Assembly: GCA_944349895.1 (NCBI GenBank)
Contig: CALVNQ010000005.1
Span: 1 to 59,464 of the forward strand
Origin: an uncultured Clostridia bacterium
Lineage (GTDB): Bacteria > Bacillota > Clostridia > Christensenellales > UBA1242
DNA length: 59,464 nt
Direction of reading: 5' to 3'
Under the pieces are notes generated by a model, which saw only the letters and a program-made list of their open reading frames with translations, was not told the DNA's origin and did no database searches. Positions 2,587 to 11,362 of this stretch are shown in pieces. The stretch's first letter is position 1, and each line of letters opens with the position of its first letter. The position numbers were made by a program, and so were the translations under genes.

Positions 2587-3186
2587 TTAAATTTCTTTTA
2601 TGTTTGTTAATTGTCTGTCTTTTGAATTATCTATTTCAATAATCTCATTGGATAATTCTATTAATTTTTCTTTATTTTTTATACTTCTATAAAACCTGTT
2701 TATTAATTTTTCTTTTGGCACATCATGTCCGCCTGCGAGGACTCTTTTTTCTAGCCTTTTTAAATTAATATTTGGGTCGATTGTGTATATAAAAACCGAC
2801 GTAATTTTAAAACCATTTTCTTTTGCTTTTTTTATTAAATCTAATTTACTAGGATGTGATAAGACGGTTTCATAAACGAATGAGGTTTTGCTATTAATTG
2901 CTTGCATAACTCTATCCATTGCTAATTGCATGCCTTTTATATTCCTTTCTTCATCATTTTTGATGTTATTCAGTTCGAATTTGTTTATTATATCTGCATT
3001 GATATACTCATAGTCACAAATGTTTTTTATATACAAGTTAGCTATGTATGTGCTTTTCCCACTGGCATTTGGCCCAGCAACAACAATCATGGTTGGTTCG
3101 GTATTATTTATAGTTTCTTTTTTATAGGCTTTTTCTAAAATTTTTAAAGTTGTTATATAATCATATATTTTAAATTTTTTAATCAT
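2587..3186 (-). CDS. zeta-toxin-like P-loop kinase (predicted ABC-type ATPase family)
   Basis: 199 residues. A Walker A motif, GPNASGKST, sits at about residues 38-46. It is followed by NADIIN (about 69-74), ETVLS (about 106-110) and a C-terminal RVLAGGHDVPKEKLINRFYR block. That order is typical of the zeta-toxin/COG4185 kinase family, whose members phosphorylate UDP-GlcNAc or other small substrates. An AAGGAG site lies about 10 nt before the ATG. No small antitoxin gene is adjacent: the upstream neighbour is a radical SAM gene on the same strand, 60 bp away. It may be a solitary kinase with a housekeeping role rather than a toxin. The substrate cannot be read from sequence. Confidence 0.75.
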   Translation of the reverse strand: MIKKFKIYDYITTLKILEKAYKKETINNTEPTMIVVAGPNASGKSTYIANLYIKNICDYEYINADIINKFELNNIKNDEERNIKGMQLAMDRVMQAINSKTSFVYETVLSHPSKLDLIKKAKENGFKITSVFIYTIDPNINLKRLEKRVLAGGHDVPKEKLINRFYRSIKNKEKLIELSNEIIEIDNSKDRQLTNIKEI

Positions 3187-4251: not shown

Positions 4252-5394
<1,143 letters not shown>

Positions 5395-5397
5395 TTG

Positions 5398-5429
5398 AAA
5401 CAATTCACTAACCAGTGAATTGTTTTTTT
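5398..5429 (+). terminator. intrinsic terminator after the collagen-like gene
   Basis: A 12-bp perfect stem (5398-5409 with 5414-5425), loop AACC, followed by T7. Confidence 0.9.
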
Positions 5430-5502
5430 ATTATTTTTTTTGCAAAATTTTGTCTAATTTAATTTTTGAAGGACTGTTTAATAAAAATTGCTTTTAATAT
5501 GC

Positions 5503-5531
5503 TTGAAAAATATTTATTCTTATGTTATAAT
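5503..5531 (+). promoter_or_regulatory. sigma-A promoter of the secG-rnr operon
   Basis: TTGAAA (5503-5508), a 17-nt spacer and TATAAT (5526-5531), about 28 nt before the first start codon at 5559. Confidence 0.75.
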
Positions 5532-5558
5532 CTCTAAGTAAACACAGGAGGGATAAGG

Positions 5559-5783
5559 TTGTCTTTAATTGGGGATATCATTGTTGATTTAAATAATTGG
5601 GTGAGAAGTTGGGACAGCACTGTGTTCGCCATTGTTATTATCATTTTGGTTTTTATTGGAACAATGTTTTCTATAAATATCATAAAAGCATTGATTGGCG
5701 GCACTATTAAATTTAAATTTTTTTCTTTCCTGTTTTTAGCAGTAGTTCTCGGGGCTATGATTTATATATGTTTGATACGTTAA
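5559..5783 (+). CDS. small two-helix membrane protein
   Basis: 74 residues starting at TTG, preceded by GGAGG at about 7 nt, so the start is well supported. Two hydrophobic segments (about residues 22-45 and 53-72) are joined by a short Lys-containing loop. It is the first gene of an operon with secG (12 bp downstream) and rnr. The family is not recognised. Position next to secG hints at a membrane or secretion role, which is inference only. Confidence 0.75.
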   Translation: MSLIGDIIVDLNNWVRSWDSTVFAIVIIILVFIGTMFSINIIKALIGGTIKFKFFSFLFLAVVLGAMIYICLIR

Positions 5784-5795
5784 AAGGAGTTTAGA

Positions 5796-6104
5796 ATGAA
5801 TTTTGCTTTATTGCTTGCTGATGAAATAAGACCAGATTGGCAGACGGGTTTTCTTCCTATTTTGAGATATATTTTATTCTTTTTAATTATCGCTTGTTCT
5901 GTGATAATAATAATCACAATATTATTGCAATCTAACTCATCTTCTGGGGGAGACCCTATAACCGGCATTCAAGAAAGTTATTATAGTAAGAACAAAGGTA
6001 GCACGCGTGATGGGAAACTTAAAATTGTTACTATTGTTTGTGCAAGTATCATTATCATTAGTGTTATTGTATATTTTATTACCGAATTAGTGAATAAATC
6101 TTAA
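5796..6104 (+). CDS. secG: preprotein translocase subunit SecG
   Basis: 102 residues with two transmembrane segments (about 23-45 and 77-97). Between them is the SecG-type cytoplasmic loop, with LLQSNSSSGGDPITG followed by a Gly/Ser/Lys-rich stretch. SecG joins SecYE and stimulates SecA-driven export across the cytoplasmic membrane. The loop is slightly longer than in the ~75-residue Bacillus protein. AAAGGAG lies 8 nt before the ATG. It stands directly before rnr with a 1-nt gap; the secG-rnr-smpB-ssrA order is common in Firmicutes and supports the call. Confidence 0.9.
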   Translation: MNFALLLADEIRPDWQTGFLPILRYILFFLIIACSVIIIITILLQSNSSSGGDPITGIQESYYSKNKGSTRDGKLKIVTIVCASIIIISVIVYFITELVNKS

Positions 6105-6105
6105 G

Positions 6106-8184
6106 ATGATGTTAAGTGAAAGGATTAAGGAAATTTTATCAAAAGAGAGTTTGGTTTATTCTAAGCCAGACAGTCTTTTTTTATTTTTGTCAACTGCTTT
6201 AGGTAAAAAATATCAGACAATTCAAACAGAGTTTAAGAAATTATTAAATTTTGGCGATATTTATGAAATAAGGAAAGGCAAGTTTATTGTTATCCCTTCT
6301 CATGGTTATGTTAAAGGAAAATTCATGGGTTCTACTAAAGGATTTGGTTTTTGTGATGTGGGATTAGAAGAGGATATATTTATACCAGGGAATAGAATCA
6401 ATGGGGCTATTGATGGGGACATTGTTATAGTCAAACTTTTTTCTAAAGATAATGGGCATGACGGAGAGGTTGTAAAAATTGTTAAGCCAACTAAAACCGT
6501 TGTTGGCAGAGTTATAAAAATTAGTAAAAACTTTTTCGTTGAGCCTGATAATAATAAAATACCATTTAAAATACCACTTATAAAATCTAAATTATTGCCA
6601 CAGATTAATCAAAAAGTTGTTGTAAGACTTATGCGGAAACCAAGTGGTAAAATCAGTGGTGAAGTAATTGAAAGCCTTGGAAGTTGTGATGATGTTAAAT
6701 CTTTGGAACTTTCATTAATTAGAGAACATAATCTATACGAGGAGTTCCCTGAGGAAGTAGAAAAATTTGCTGAAGAGTTAAATATCCCTGTTACTGAAAT
6801 TCAAAAACGTGGCAGGCTTAATTTAACTGATGAAATTACTTTTACTATTGATGGCGAAGATGCAAAAGATTTTGATGATGCTGTTTCTATAAAAAAAATC
6901 TCTGATGGATATGAGCTCGGCGTTCATATCGCAGATGTTGGTGAGTTTGTCAAGTTCGGCTCTAAACTCGATGAAGTGGCTTTTGAAAGGGGGAATAGCA
7001 CTTATTTCCCTACATCTGTGTTGCCAATGTTGCCAGTGCCAATTTCGAATGGGATTTGTTCTTTAAACGAAAATGAAGATAGACTTACACTTTCATGCAT
7101 TATGAGAATTAATAATGAAGGGGTTGTTAAGGATTATCAAATTAAAGAGAGCGTTATCAACAGCAAAGCTAGGTTAACTTATACCGATGTTTATCAAGTG
7201 ATTTTAGGTAAAGGGAAAGACACCAAGGCTTATAAATTTAAATCTCAAATTTTATTAATGAATGAATTATCTAAAATTTTAGAAAAAAATAGATTATTAA
7301 GGGGAGCATTGGATCTTGATATTCCTGAATCACAATTTATTTTTGATGAAAAAGGTTATGTTATTGGCGTTCAAAAGAGAGAAAGAAACGATGCGCATAA
7401 GTTAATTGAAGAGTTTATGGTTATAGCTAACGAAACAGTAGCAAAACATTTTTGTAAGTTAAAAGTTCCTTTTGTTTATAGAATCCATGAGAGACCAACA
7501 ATGGAAAAAATGAAAAATGTTTTAGAATTTTTAAAAGGTCTTGGTGTTGCTTGCCCCGCTTTGCAAAAAAATATTACTTCTTCTTACGTTAAAAAATTGT
7601 TAGATTTAATAAAAAACAAACCTTATGAAGAAGTCGCTAATAAAATTATTCTAAGAAGTTTGCAAAAGGCAGTTTATAAAAATCAAAATTTAGGGCATTT
7701 TGGATTAGCATTAGAATTTTATTGCCATTTTACTTCTCCAATTCGTAGATATTCAGACTTGACTATTCATAGAATAATTAAAGACTATTTACACAATGAT
7801 ATCAATTCAGAAAAATTAGATGACCTTGAGCAATTCACTTTCGAAAGTTCTCAACAAAGTTCGGAAACCGAAAGAAATAGTGAAAAAGCTGAAAGAGAGG
7901 TCGATGACCTGTGGAAAGCATATTTAATGAAAGATAAAATTGGTCAGGTGTTTGATGCCATTGTGACAAGCGTAACTAATTATGGTCTCTTTGTTGGATT
8001 AGAAAATTCGGTGGAGGGACTGGTTAAACTTGAAGATTTGCCTACAGATGGATATTTATTTTTTGAAAGATCTTTGGAATTAAAAGGGCAAAAACATACT
8101 TTTAAAATTGGTGATAAGCTTAAAGTTAAACTGATTTCTTCCAATATTTTTACGAGAAAAGTCGATTTTGTGCTCGAGAAATAG
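6106..8184 (+). CDS. rnr: ribonuclease R
   Basis: 692 residues, usual for RNase R. The order is an N-terminal winged-helix region (about 1-60), cold-shock/OB domains (GYVKGKFMGSTKGFGF onward), the RNB catalytic core and a C-terminal S1 domain (IVTSVTNYGLFVGL). The RNB core shows DGEDAKDFDDAVS, which carries the metal-binding aspartates, and HFTSPIRRYSDLTIHR. The enzyme degrades structured RNA 3' to 5' and, with tmRNA-SmpB, removes non-stop mRNAs, which fits its neighbours. No strong ribosome binding site is seen. It starts 1 nt after the secG stop and is probably translated by coupling. A second ATG follows immediately. Confidence 0.95.
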   Translation: MMLSERIKEILSKESLVYSKPDSLFLFLSTALGKKYQTIQTEFKKLLNFGDIYEIRKGKFIVIPSHGYVKGKFMGSTKGFGFCDVGLEEDIFIPGNRINGAIDGDIVIVKLFSKDNGHDGEVVKIVKPTKTVVGRVIKISKNFFVEPDNNKIPFKIPLIKSKLLPQINQKVVVRLMRKPSGKISGEVIESLGSCDDVKSLELSLIREHNLYEEFPEEVEKFAEELNIPVTEIQKRGRLNLTDEITFTIDGEDAKDFDDAVSIKKISDGYELGVHIADVGEFVKFGSKLDEVAFERGNSTYFPTSVLPMLPVPISNGICSLNENEDRLTLSCIMRINNEGVVKDYQIKESVINSKARLTYTDVYQVILGKGKDTKAYKFKSQILLMNELSKILEKNRLLRGALDLDIPESQFIFDEKGYVIGVQKRERNDAHKLIEEFMVIANETVAKHFCKLKVPFVYRIHERPTMEKMKNVLEFLKGLGVACPALQKNITSSYVKKLLDLIKNKPYEEVANKIILRSLQKAVYKNQNLGHFGLALEFYCHFTSPIRRYSDLTIHRIIKDYLHNDINSEKLDDLEQFTFESSQQSSETERNSEKAEREVDDLWKAYLMKDKIGQVFDAIVTSVTNYGLFVGLENSVEGLVKLEDLPTDGYLFFERSLELKGQKHTFKIGDKLKVKLISSNIFTRKVDFVLEK

Positions 8185-8243
8185 AGGTTTTTAATACTTT
8201 CGGCACAAATTATTAAAAAATATTAAAAAGGGTATTGAAATAA

Positions 8244-8723
8244 TTGACTAAAAGTGATATAATAAACAAAGAAATAAAATTGATAGCCTCAAACAAGAAA
8301 GCCTATCATGATTATTTCCTTTCTGACCTGTTAGAAGCAGGCATCGTCCTTGAAGGTAGCGAGGTCAAATCGTTAAGACAAAATGGTATGAGCTTAAATG
8401 AAAGTTTTGTTTATTTTAAAGGTAATGAAATTTTTCTTAAAAATGCTTATATTAAGTCGTATGAAAAGTCCTCCTCTTTCAAACCAGATGAAAGAAAAGA
8501 TAGAAAACTCCTTTTGCACAAAGTGGAAATAGGAAAGTTGAAGAAAAAAACTCAAGAAAAAGGTTTTTCAATTGTTCCTACAAAAACTTACTTTTCAAAA
8601 GGTAAAGTAAAGGTTGAAATTGCTTTGGCTAAGGGTAAACATCTTTTCGATAAAAGAGAAGCTCTGAAAGAGAAAGTGGTTAAACGAGAAATAGATAGAG
8701 CTGTCAAATTTAGGGGGCGATAA
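8244..8723 (+). CDS. smpB: SsrA-binding protein SmpB
   Basis: 159 residues with the family signature: ISNKKAYHDYFL-type N-terminus, EAGIVLEGSEVKSLR, and LLLHKVEIGKLKKKTQEKG. The basic C-terminal tail KREIDRAVKFRGR inserts into the ribosome's mRNA channel. SmpB carries tmRNA to stalled ribosomes. The start is TTG at 8244; an AAAAGGG lies rather far upstream (12-15 nt). The last 11 nt of the frame, including the TAA stop, lie inside the first bases of tmRNA (8713 onward), so the two genes physically overlap. Confidence 0.93.
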   Translation: MTKSDIINKEIKLIASNKKAYHDYFLSDLLEAGIVLEGSEVKSLRQNGMSLNESFVYFKGNEIFLKNAYIKSYEKSSSFKPDERKDRKLLLHKVEIGKLKKKTQEKGFSIVPTKTYFSKGKVKVEIALAKGKHLFDKREALKEKVVKREIDRAVKFRGR

Positions 8724-9067
8724 GGCTTCGACGGAGTAGATGAGAAAAGTGCAAAGCGTGTGGTTGATGATGTGAAACCTAAAAACAAATCAAAAAAATA
8801 AACGCAAATAATAACTATAAGACTGTTTTAGCTGCGGCTTAACGTCCACCTATTGTTTTCTTTGCCACTCGGGTTAACAAGGTGTCAAAATTGAGTGGAA
8901 AGTAGTAATTATTGTTTGCTTTTGACTTTAATTATGAAATTTATAAAAGCTAACATTTTCAAGTTTGTTTGTGGAATTGATTATGTGACTTTAAACACAA
9001 ACTGCACACGGAGAAAAGCTTTTTGGGTCTATTTCGGACGTGGGTTCAATCCCCACCGTCTCCACCA
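8713..9067 (+). ncRNA. ssrA: transfer-messenger RNA (tmRNA)
   Basis: 355 nt. The 5' end GGGGGCGATAAGGCTTCGAC and the 3' end ...CGTCTCCACCA pair as a 7-bp acceptor stem with two G-U pairs, and GGTTCAATCCCC forms the T arm. The tag frame begins at GCA 8804 and reads ANNNYKTVLAAA then TAA at 8840-8842, a standard hydrophobic AAA-ending degradation tag. CCA is encoded. The gene overlaps smpB by 11 nt and I see no good promoter inside the smpB 3' end. A weak imperfect hairpin at 9074-9097 may act as terminator. Confidence 0.95.
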
Positions 9068-9127
9068 ATTTTAGTTTTACAGATAAATTCTGAAAACATA
9101 AATAATTTTTATAAGGGGTAAAAAAGT

Positions 9128-10216
9128 ATGGGTACAATTATTCTTAATGTCGTTATTGTTCTTGGTATAATTATTGCTGGAGGATTTTTAATATTTTTCC
9201 TTGGAGATCTTTTAATTTCTATCATAGATCCAAAAGGGGAAGAAGAAAGAGTTAAAATGAAGAGAAAGGCATCTTCAAAAAAATTTGTAGAAAAATTGGC
9301 AAAACTTCCTGAGGAAGATGTTGAAGAGATCAAAGACGATAACCAATTTGTTAGCGAAGTTTTAGAAGAGGTCTCTCAAGAAGAAAATGTTGAAAAGAAG
9401 GAAGAAATTGTCCCTGTGGTTGAGGATTATGTGCCTCAAGATTTAGTTGAACAATCAGAAGAGACTTCTCAATTAGATAAACTTGCTGAAGCAAGGAAAG
9501 CCCTTGAAAAAAGGAAAGAAGAAATTTTAAGGCGCATGAGAGAATCTATTGAAAATGATGATGTTGAGACAGAAGATTCTGATGATGACGATGATGTAGA
9601 AGATGAAGTTGAAGAAGAACAGAAAACCGAAGGGGGAGTTGTTTTAGAAGACAGCATTGAAAATGTAATAGAGGAAAATGTTGTTCTTAACGATGAAGAA
9701 GATTCTCAAGATCAAGATGATAACAACAATACTTCCGAAGAAGAATCTCAAGTGATTACTGAAGATAAAGCAGTACCAGTTAATCTTATGTCTGAAGAAG
9801 AATATTTAAAACAACTTGCTGAATTACAAACAAGATTAAGGGAAAATGAAAAAGAGCTAAAAGAGTGTAAAAAAGAATATATTCCTCTTGCTAAAATTAA
9901 CAAAACTCTTGCAAGAGATGAAAAGAAACTCAACAGGAAAGAAGCTATTGTAGCAAAGCAAAAAGTTATGCTTTATGGGGTTAACAATTATGAAGACCTT
10001 GATGAAGATAAAGCTAAGAAACTAGCTGAAGAACTTGATCTGCTTGATGGCCTTAAACTTTCTGTTCAGCATTGCCATGACGTTATGGACGCAAACAAAG
10101 ATCGTTTCCCTATTTTAGAGAAAATGTATAAGATTTTGAAAAACCAAAACGAACAACTTAAGGCAGACATAGAAGAAATTGAGGAAGCATTAAAAAAATT
10201 AAAGAATGGCAAATAA
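9128..10216 (+). CDS. acidic membrane-anchored coiled-coil protein, unknown function
   Basis: 362 residues. One N-terminal hydrophobic segment (about 3-33) is followed by a long Glu/Asp-rich, low-complexity cytoplasmic region (about 60-220). The C-terminal ~130 residues are rich in Leu, Lys and Glu and predicted coiled coil (LAELQTRLRENEKELKECKK). AAGGGG precedes the ATG. It lies between ssrA and a terminator, facing rplL. No family is recognised. The shape suggests a scaffold or tether at the membrane, which is inference. Confidence 0.8.
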   Translation: MGTIILNVVIVLGIIIAGGFLIFFLGDLLISIIDPKGEEERVKMKRKASSKKFVEKLAKLPEEDVEEIKDDNQFVSEVLEEVSQEENVEKKEEIVPVVEDYVPQDLVEQSEETSQLDKLAEARKALEKRKEEILRRMRESIENDDVETEDSDDDDDVEDEVEEEQKTEGGVVLEDSIENVIEENVVLNDEEDSQDQDDNNNTSEEESQVITEDKAVPVNLMSEEEYLKQLAELQTRLRENEKELKECKKEYIPLAKINKTLARDEKKLNRKEAIVAKQKVMLYGVNNYEDLDEDKAKKLAEELDLLDGLKLSVQHCHDVMDANKDRFPILEKMYKILKNQNEQLKADIEEIEEALKKLKNGK

Positions 10217-11190: not shown

Positions 11191-11227
11191 GTTTCCTCCT
11201 TATAGATTTTTTTGTTTTGTGTTCCTA

Positions 11228-11350
11228 AAAAAAATCTCTTGCGCCAAAGAAAAAGGGCAAGAGAGAATTATCACTTTTTTCCTTTTTCCTCGGCAAGCAT
11301 GTCTGAAGACATTTACGACAAAGCACTTGCTGTCTATGGAAAGATTTATT
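11228..11350 (-). promoter_or_regulatory. ribosomal protein L10 leader with attenuator hairpin
   Basis: The minus-strand 5' UTR of rplJ is about 165 nt. It contains a conserved-looking purine and AGCAAGTGC/CTTGCCGAGG segment (about 11345-11290). A terminator-like hairpin follows: TCTCTTGC (11264-11257) pairs with GCAAGAGA (11242-11235) and a U-run of eight follows. This matches the known L10-leader logic, where L10 or the L10(L12)4 complex binds the leader and lowers expression of its own operon. The attenuator stem is directly visible. L10 binding is inferred from the known family. Confidence 0.75.
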
Positions 11351-11362
11351 TTAGACTGTTAT

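Follow-up and report, generated by a model that had tools for sequence, protein, structure and literature searches.

The smpB gene in the window (the whole stretch of DNA that was analysed, 59,464 nucleotides) runs 11 nt into ssrA, and its stop codon lies inside the mature tmRNA on the same strand, an overlap of the Carsonella kind. This observation, first made from one sequence, is right and is better supported than the sequence alone could show. Because the identical register occurs in 14 genomes of the window's genus, which form one clade of uncultured gut-type Clostridia, the overlap is not due to chance or assembly error. We put at about one half the probability that smpB and ssrA form an overlapping unit in which translation and tmRNA maturation compete and SmpB is under a passive, arfA-like negative feedback.

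The smpB-ssrA locus

The source genome assembly comprises 0.83 Mb in 23 contigs, with completeness listed as 100%. The gene order on the plus strand of the window is secG, rnr, smpB, ssrA, and rnr was thus found in the same gene cluster as smpB and ssrA, where the sequence-only reading had placed RNase R.

5503..5531, plus strand: promoter-like site upstream of the operon, TTGAAA-17-TATAAT with TG (sigma70-type match 11/12)
5796..6104, plus strand: secG (PF03840, 33.6 bits versus cut-off 29.2)
6106..8184, plus strand: rnr, RNase R (PF00773 RNB, 378 bits, plus CSD2, OB_RNB and S1)
8235..8263, plus strand: smpB-ssrA promoter, P2 (-35 TTGAAA 8235-8240, -10 TATAAT 8258-8263, predicted RNA start about 8270)
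8244..8723, plus strand: smpB, ORF from TTG to TAA, 159 aa (PF01668, 183.9 bits; start uncertain, TTG 8244 or TTG 8280)
8713..8723, plus strand: smpB/ssrA overlap (last smpB codons and TAA coincide with the acceptor-stem 5' strand and positions 8-11 of the tmRNA)
between 8712 and 8713, plus strand: predicted RNase P cleavage (mature tmRNA 5' end from ARAGORN and Rfam)
8713..9067, plus strand: ssrA, tmRNA (ARAGORN; Rfam RF00023)
8804..8842, plus strand: tmRNA tag frame, ANNNYKTVLAAA* (ARAGORN)

The SmpB product matched positions 1-142 of the 143 in PF01668 (cut-off 27 bits) and has 24 residues from DKR to its end; it is not a degenerate, tail-less SmpB. The start at TTG 8244 is uncertain, being the choice of the ORF caller only, and sits in the spacer of the conserved promoter. 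The tmRNA was full-length in RF00023 (168.3 bits, model 1-374 of 374), and ARAGORN independently gave the same ends. The tmRNA has a G3-U70 acceptor stem and, by ARAGORN, a tag frame. The acceptor stem, GGGGGCG/CGUCUCC, is paired at 7 of 7 positions and is followed by A73-CCA.

The overlap at 8713-8723 reads GGGGGCGATAA. The claim that smpB ends at 8723 and the tmRNA begins at 8713 was upheld by the ORF list, ARAGORN and RF00023, and the two RNA methods agreed on 8713 as the mature 5' end. A cut at 8712/8713 splits codon 157 behind its first base, and R157, G158, R159 and TAA pass into the tmRNA as its positions 1-11.

Elsewhere in the window, a small hydrophobic ORF with a TTG start (5559-5783, plus strand) lies upstream of secG, past the promoter-like site at 5503. 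A collagen-repeat protein gene (4252-5394, plus strand) is followed by a terminator-like hairpin at 5400-5423. A Zeta-toxin-like kinase domain (2587-3186, minus strand; PF06414, 41.9 bits) and a ribosomal protein L10 leader RNA (11220-11357, minus strand; 59.9 bits) were also observed.

Conservation and phylogeny of the overlap

The genus set comprised 112 genomes; smpB was detectable in 105, and both the smpB stop, taken as the first in-frame stop, and the tmRNA start were placed in 103 (without G030 and G137). The distance from stop to tmRNA was -12 in 3 genomes (G026, G131, G143), -11 in 14, -1 in 1, 0 in 5, 1-19 in 73 and more than 50 in 7, so that 78 of 103 had a gap of 0-19 nt. Conservation in relatives had been suggested as a check on the overlap, and the -11 register proved identical in 14 species; 13 of these genomes were also found as named records from several MAG projects. 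In G050 (-1) the stop codon is split, the G of its TAG being tmRNA base 1. In G004, G018 and G038, apparent overlaps (32, 89 and 44 nt, respectively) were false, as tblastn had read through a stop. Among the other genera of the family, 21 of 25 fetched genomes were placed; 20 had gaps of 0 to 406, and the remaining one was G308. This genome, from another genus, also shows the -11 register but was left out: it carries smpB twice, and its contig ends within the tmRNA. Its smpB tail is almost identical to that of G149, and G308 is probably a bin mix or contamination (G308:C14; L121, L123, L150).

A tree was built from the SmpB core and RNase R of 102 genomes (471 columns), with the end of the SmpB tail left out. 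The 14 genomes with the -11 register formed one clade (SH-aLRT 98). The overlap trait needed four changes on the tree, two for the -12 type, and within the genus the tmRNA contains or splits the stop in at least three ways; the -12 register (3 species) and the split stop (1 species) arose separately from -11. The tmRNAs of the clade all start GGGGGCG[A/T]TAAGG and its SmpB proteins all end [R/G]GR, while the acceptor stem is paired 7/7 in all 18 genus genomes that have an overlap. The -12 overlaps came to light through Rfam placement of tmRNAs with AAGTTTCGAC or TAGTTTCGAC, which ARAGORN had missed. Eight loci of one subclade (L062, L065, L066, L068, L227, L230, L231, L236) carry these sequences instead of GGNTTCGAC. 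In two genomes of the genus the locus is missing: G051 (99% complete) had no match to smpB, a full-length tmRNA or RNase R, and smpB and RNase R were absent from G136. Either an assembly gap or a true loss of trans-translation would account for the missing rnr-smpB-ssrA locus.

To judge from non-overlap relatives such as G018, which reads TAAGAAA before GGGGACGATTTTGG and whose tmRNA start would encode RGR without that stop, the overlap looks as if the upstream stop had been lost and a TAA within the tmRNA taken up in its place. In a lineage already at a gap of about 0-10 nt, the upstream stop would have been lost, and the TAA at tmRNA positions 9-11 would then have ended the frame. Such a stop codon in this part of the tmRNA is insufficient for an overlap, since 8 other bacteria carrying RGGGGGCGNTAAGGNTTCGACNG showed none. 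RGGGGGCGNTAAGGNTTCGACNG was present in 22 contig stretches; 14 of them, from 13 clade species and the bin G308, had the overlap, and in the 8 others the gap was 1, 93, 145 or 162 in four, and smpB or tmRNA was unplaced in four.

A wider search used a DNA pattern running from the DKR codons to GGNTTCGAC, and its negatives are partial because the pattern misses the -12 type. A stop inside the tmRNA was found only in the -11 clade, G308 and G050 among 309 family genomes, only in the window among 398 phylum genomes, and, among the matches listed for 396 order genomes, only in clade members. By tblastn, 2 of the 50 phylum and order pattern loci hold SmpB (the window, and L172 with a gap of 56).

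The stability of the register was compared with the rest of the tree. Of 60 spacing changes overall, 0 fell in the clade versus 13.0 expected; this test overstates the case because a non-coding gap varies more freely. The fairer test, on tail length, is only suggestive and gave 0 changes of stop position in the clade versus 3.8 predicted by the rate elsewhere. Just upstream of the stop, every clade member has at least one codon one step from a stop.

Transcription of smpB and ssrA

Promoters were scanned with a single sigma70-type matrix. Over the 100 nt before the tmRNA in the 18 overlap genomes, the best score was 5.87 bits versus 5.82 in synonymous-codon shuffles. A site of at least 10 bits within 60 nt before the tmRNA was found in 0/18 overlap genomes, 1/78 genomes with a gap of 0-19 and 0/7 with long gaps. 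The same matrix reached 10 bits within 60 nt of ssrA in 16 of 34 genomes of the same order, and in a control of the same class (G545/L172, smpB-ssrA gap 56 nt) it scored a 15.6-bit promoter inside the gap. At the smpB 5' end, all 102 genus genomes tested had a site of at least 10 bits (median 13.9), of the type TTGAAA-17-TATAAT; a control stretch within smpB reached this score in 2/102 only. The best two sigma70-type sites in window positions 5400-9200 are those at 5503-5531 and 8235-8263. A terminator-like hairpin between rnr and smpB was seen in 0/14 clade members, and is present in 13/84 non-overlap genomes and in G026.

With no promoter-like site just before ssrA in the overlap genomes and a strong promoter before smpB in 102/102, ssrA is most likely transcribed through smpB across the genus. 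The earlier remark that the smpB 3' end contains no good ssrA promoter was thereby borne out, and the joint smpB-ssrA transcript gained computational support. An ssrA promoter of a type invisible to the scan, giving separate smpB mRNA and tmRNA and leaving the overlap with little effect, is very improbable: the scan did rely on a single sigma70-type matrix, but that matrix detects ssrA promoters in 16/34 same-order genomes and smpB promoters in 102/102.

The smpB leader

RNA usually starts about 7 nt after a -10 box. In the non-overlap genomes a ribosome-binding site (AGGAG and similar) starts directly after the -10 box in 65/84, and an AUG lies 9-12 nt past the box in 72/84. In the -11 clade, 13/14 members have an in-frame ATG inside the -10 box (TATAATG) behind AAAGGTG, where the window has TATAATA. 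The older in-frame ATG (offset 10) is retained by 6/14, a further 7 offer an in-frame GTG or TTG past the predicted start, and G047 has none; leaders are different in the 3 genomes of the -12 type. RNA from P2 would accordingly be predicted to lack the smpB ribosome-binding site and, in 13/14 clade members, the upstream AUG. P2 RNA could be chiefly tmRNA precursor, with the longer operon RNA the better SmpB message, and many transcripts may thus serve as tmRNA precursors and be poor messages for SmpB.

Predicted RNase P cleavage, the SmpB tail and rescue systems

RNase P is established as the maker of the tmRNA 5' end. The genome encodes RNase P RNA (RF00010, 295.9 bits); together with the promoter before smpB and the lack of one before ssrA, this would fit a shared transcript processed by RNase P. 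RNase P should remove the smpB stop from the joint transcript. Bacterial RNase P favours U before the cut. The base there was a purine in 14/14 clade members (A 6, G 8), versus T 68, C 15, A 14 and G 0 in the 97 other genomes of the genus, family and order with gaps of 0-29. With a purine where U is preferred, cleavage in the clade may be slowed by the coding overlap, to the benefit of translation.

The SmpB tail is 24 residues from DKR to the end throughout the clade, with one Lys invariant in 14/14; tails of relatives are mostly 19-23 residues. A truncated SmpB of 156 residues would end approximately where the full proteins of relatives do. RqcH (PF05833) had no match in this genome. ArfB was not found either, since PF00472 matched only two proteins, of 365 and 344 residues, both the size of the release factors RF1/RF2. 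With RqcH and ArfB absent, tmRNA-SmpB is the sole rescue route recognised by these tests.

Discussion

The reading to which we give even odds, passive feedback, would work as follows. From sequence comparison, smpB and ssrA appear to be one overlapping transcription unit with no recognisable separate ssrA promoter. RNA would start near 8270 and probably also far upstream, before secG-rnr, and every RNA would be a possible SmpB message and a tmRNA precursor at once. Leading ribosomes could complete SmpB while the tmRNA 3' half is in synthesis. Once the tRNA-like domain folds, known processing predicts that RNase P cuts at 8712/8713 and strips the smpB part of its stop and the three codons before it. 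The acceptor stem should be unable to fold while a ribosome occupies the end of the frame, and vice versa, so that translation and maturation would compete. Ribosomes on the cut message would stall after F156 and become substrates of tmRNA-SmpB, giving passive negative feedback on SmpB and then decay from the 3' end. The sequence-only reading had each transcript yield either smpB mRNA or tmRNA. So strict an alternative does not hold, as leading ribosomes may finish SmpB before the tmRNA can fold, which needs its 3' half. Nor would the transcripts be equivalent, because P2 probably starts past the smpB ribosome-binding site.

The 14/14 membership in one clade with an unchanged register favours feedback, as do the several kinds of overlap, the signs of a joint transcript, the RNase P RNA, the lack of another recognised rescue route and the precedent of arfA. 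Against it, the system can do without the overlap, because 78/103 genus members keep the stop 0-19 nt before the tmRNA. A P2 start past the ribosome-binding site would also make many precursors poor messages, and the purine before the cut is possibly a poorer RNase P site. A stronger form of the idea, in which tmRNA maturation is a built-in off-switch for SmpB that was selected and evolved more than once in the genus, the non-stop message being destroyed by the pair itself, is rather doubtful; on this reading rnr, upstream on the same RNA, would perhaps be destroyed too, as arfA does to zntR.

A harmless lock-in is possible, though we hold it with less confidence than passive feedback. Here a compacted genome would have lost the stop by drift, with regain made hard as the extended tail became part of SmpB; SmpB would be finished before RNase P acts, and cut messages would decay at once with no regulation. 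Small genomes, the short gaps in 78/103 and several separate overlaps fit drift in a compact operon, the fixed 24-residue tail with its invariant Lys looks as if the protein end were selected, and the Carsonella overlap goes along with genome decay. Against it, 0 changes of stop position were seen versus 3.8 predicted, although every member has at least one nearby codon that a single step would turn into a stop. Constraint on the protein explains this absence equally well: SmpB function may itself depend on the lost [R/G]GR residues, and the overlap would then persist without regulation. Sequence alone does not separate regulation from lock-in, since reversions would be lacking as well were the extra tail residues important to the protein. 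A division of labour, with P2 RNA mainly tmRNA precursor and SmpB made from a longer secG-rnr-smpB-ssrA RNA carrying the ribosome-binding site and AUG, is unlikely. In its favour are the leaders of the non-overlap genomes (65/84 and 72/84) and of 13/14 clade members, the promoter-like site at 5503-5531 and the co-transcription of secG-rnr-smpB in S. pneumoniae (PMC3534368). Yet an AUG near the 5' end is usable without a ribosome-binding site, 6/14 keep the older ATG and 7 others a GTG or TTG past the predicted start, and leaders of another kind occur in the 3 genomes of the -12 type.

The smpB-ssrA overlap of Carsonella ruddii is said to have been described by Mao in 2009. According to the available sections of Hudson, Lau and Williams (2014, PMC4131195), smpB of this insect symbiont runs into ssrA, tmRNA maturation should give a non-stop smpB mRNA, and the same SmpB feedback was proposed, with the overlap found 'nowhere else'. 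There the overlap accompanies genome decay, occurs in only half of the strains with seemingly random C-termini, and the SmpB tail is lost, whereas here 14 species share a single fixed register, SmpB keeps its tail, and additional overlaps arose separately in the genus. Table 4 of that paper lists CDS-tRNA overlaps such as ftsW-tRNA-Ile in Helicobacter, in which an upstream same-strand CDS overlaps a tRNA-like gene and 5' maturation is likewise predicted to give a non-stop mRNA; it lacks the self-reference because its protein has no rescue role.

In E. coli, the mRNA of the rescue factor ArfA is rendered non-stop by a processing enzyme, RNase III, and trans-translation represses it (PMC10107115, PMC3985003). 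ArfA is a backup, and RNase III cuts within its frame; here SmpB itself would be affected, through the RNase P cut that matures its partner RNA. The upstream zntR, on the same RNA as arfA, is lost in a PNPase-dependent manner (PMC10107115), and by analogy rnr could be affected here. Streptococcus pneumoniae shares the secG-rnr-smpB gene order; the three genes are co-transcribed, and processing in the rnr/smpB overlap gives rnr or smpB (PMC3534368, in its accessible part). There the overlap is rnr/smpB rather than smpB/ssrA, and no active promoter was found before smpB. The accessible part of the 2025 tmRNA database paper has nothing on an smpB overlap, and no literature on this overlap in this lineage was found among the matches listed.

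To our knowledge, how cells balance SmpB and tmRNA is not settled. Feedback of this sort has been proposed before for one symbiont, Carsonella; new here are a second, independent and phylogenetically stable overlap, an intact SmpB tail, a probable shared promoter and two further kinds of overlap in the genus. That 14 species which are not insect symbionts share a stable overlap overturns the 'nowhere else' statement of 2014 (PMC4131195). A non-stop smpB message would be the very type of damage that SmpB-tmRNA repairs, and the overlap clade, with the further cases in its genus, opens the Carsonella proposal to tests in laboratory bacteria and on comparative RNA data.
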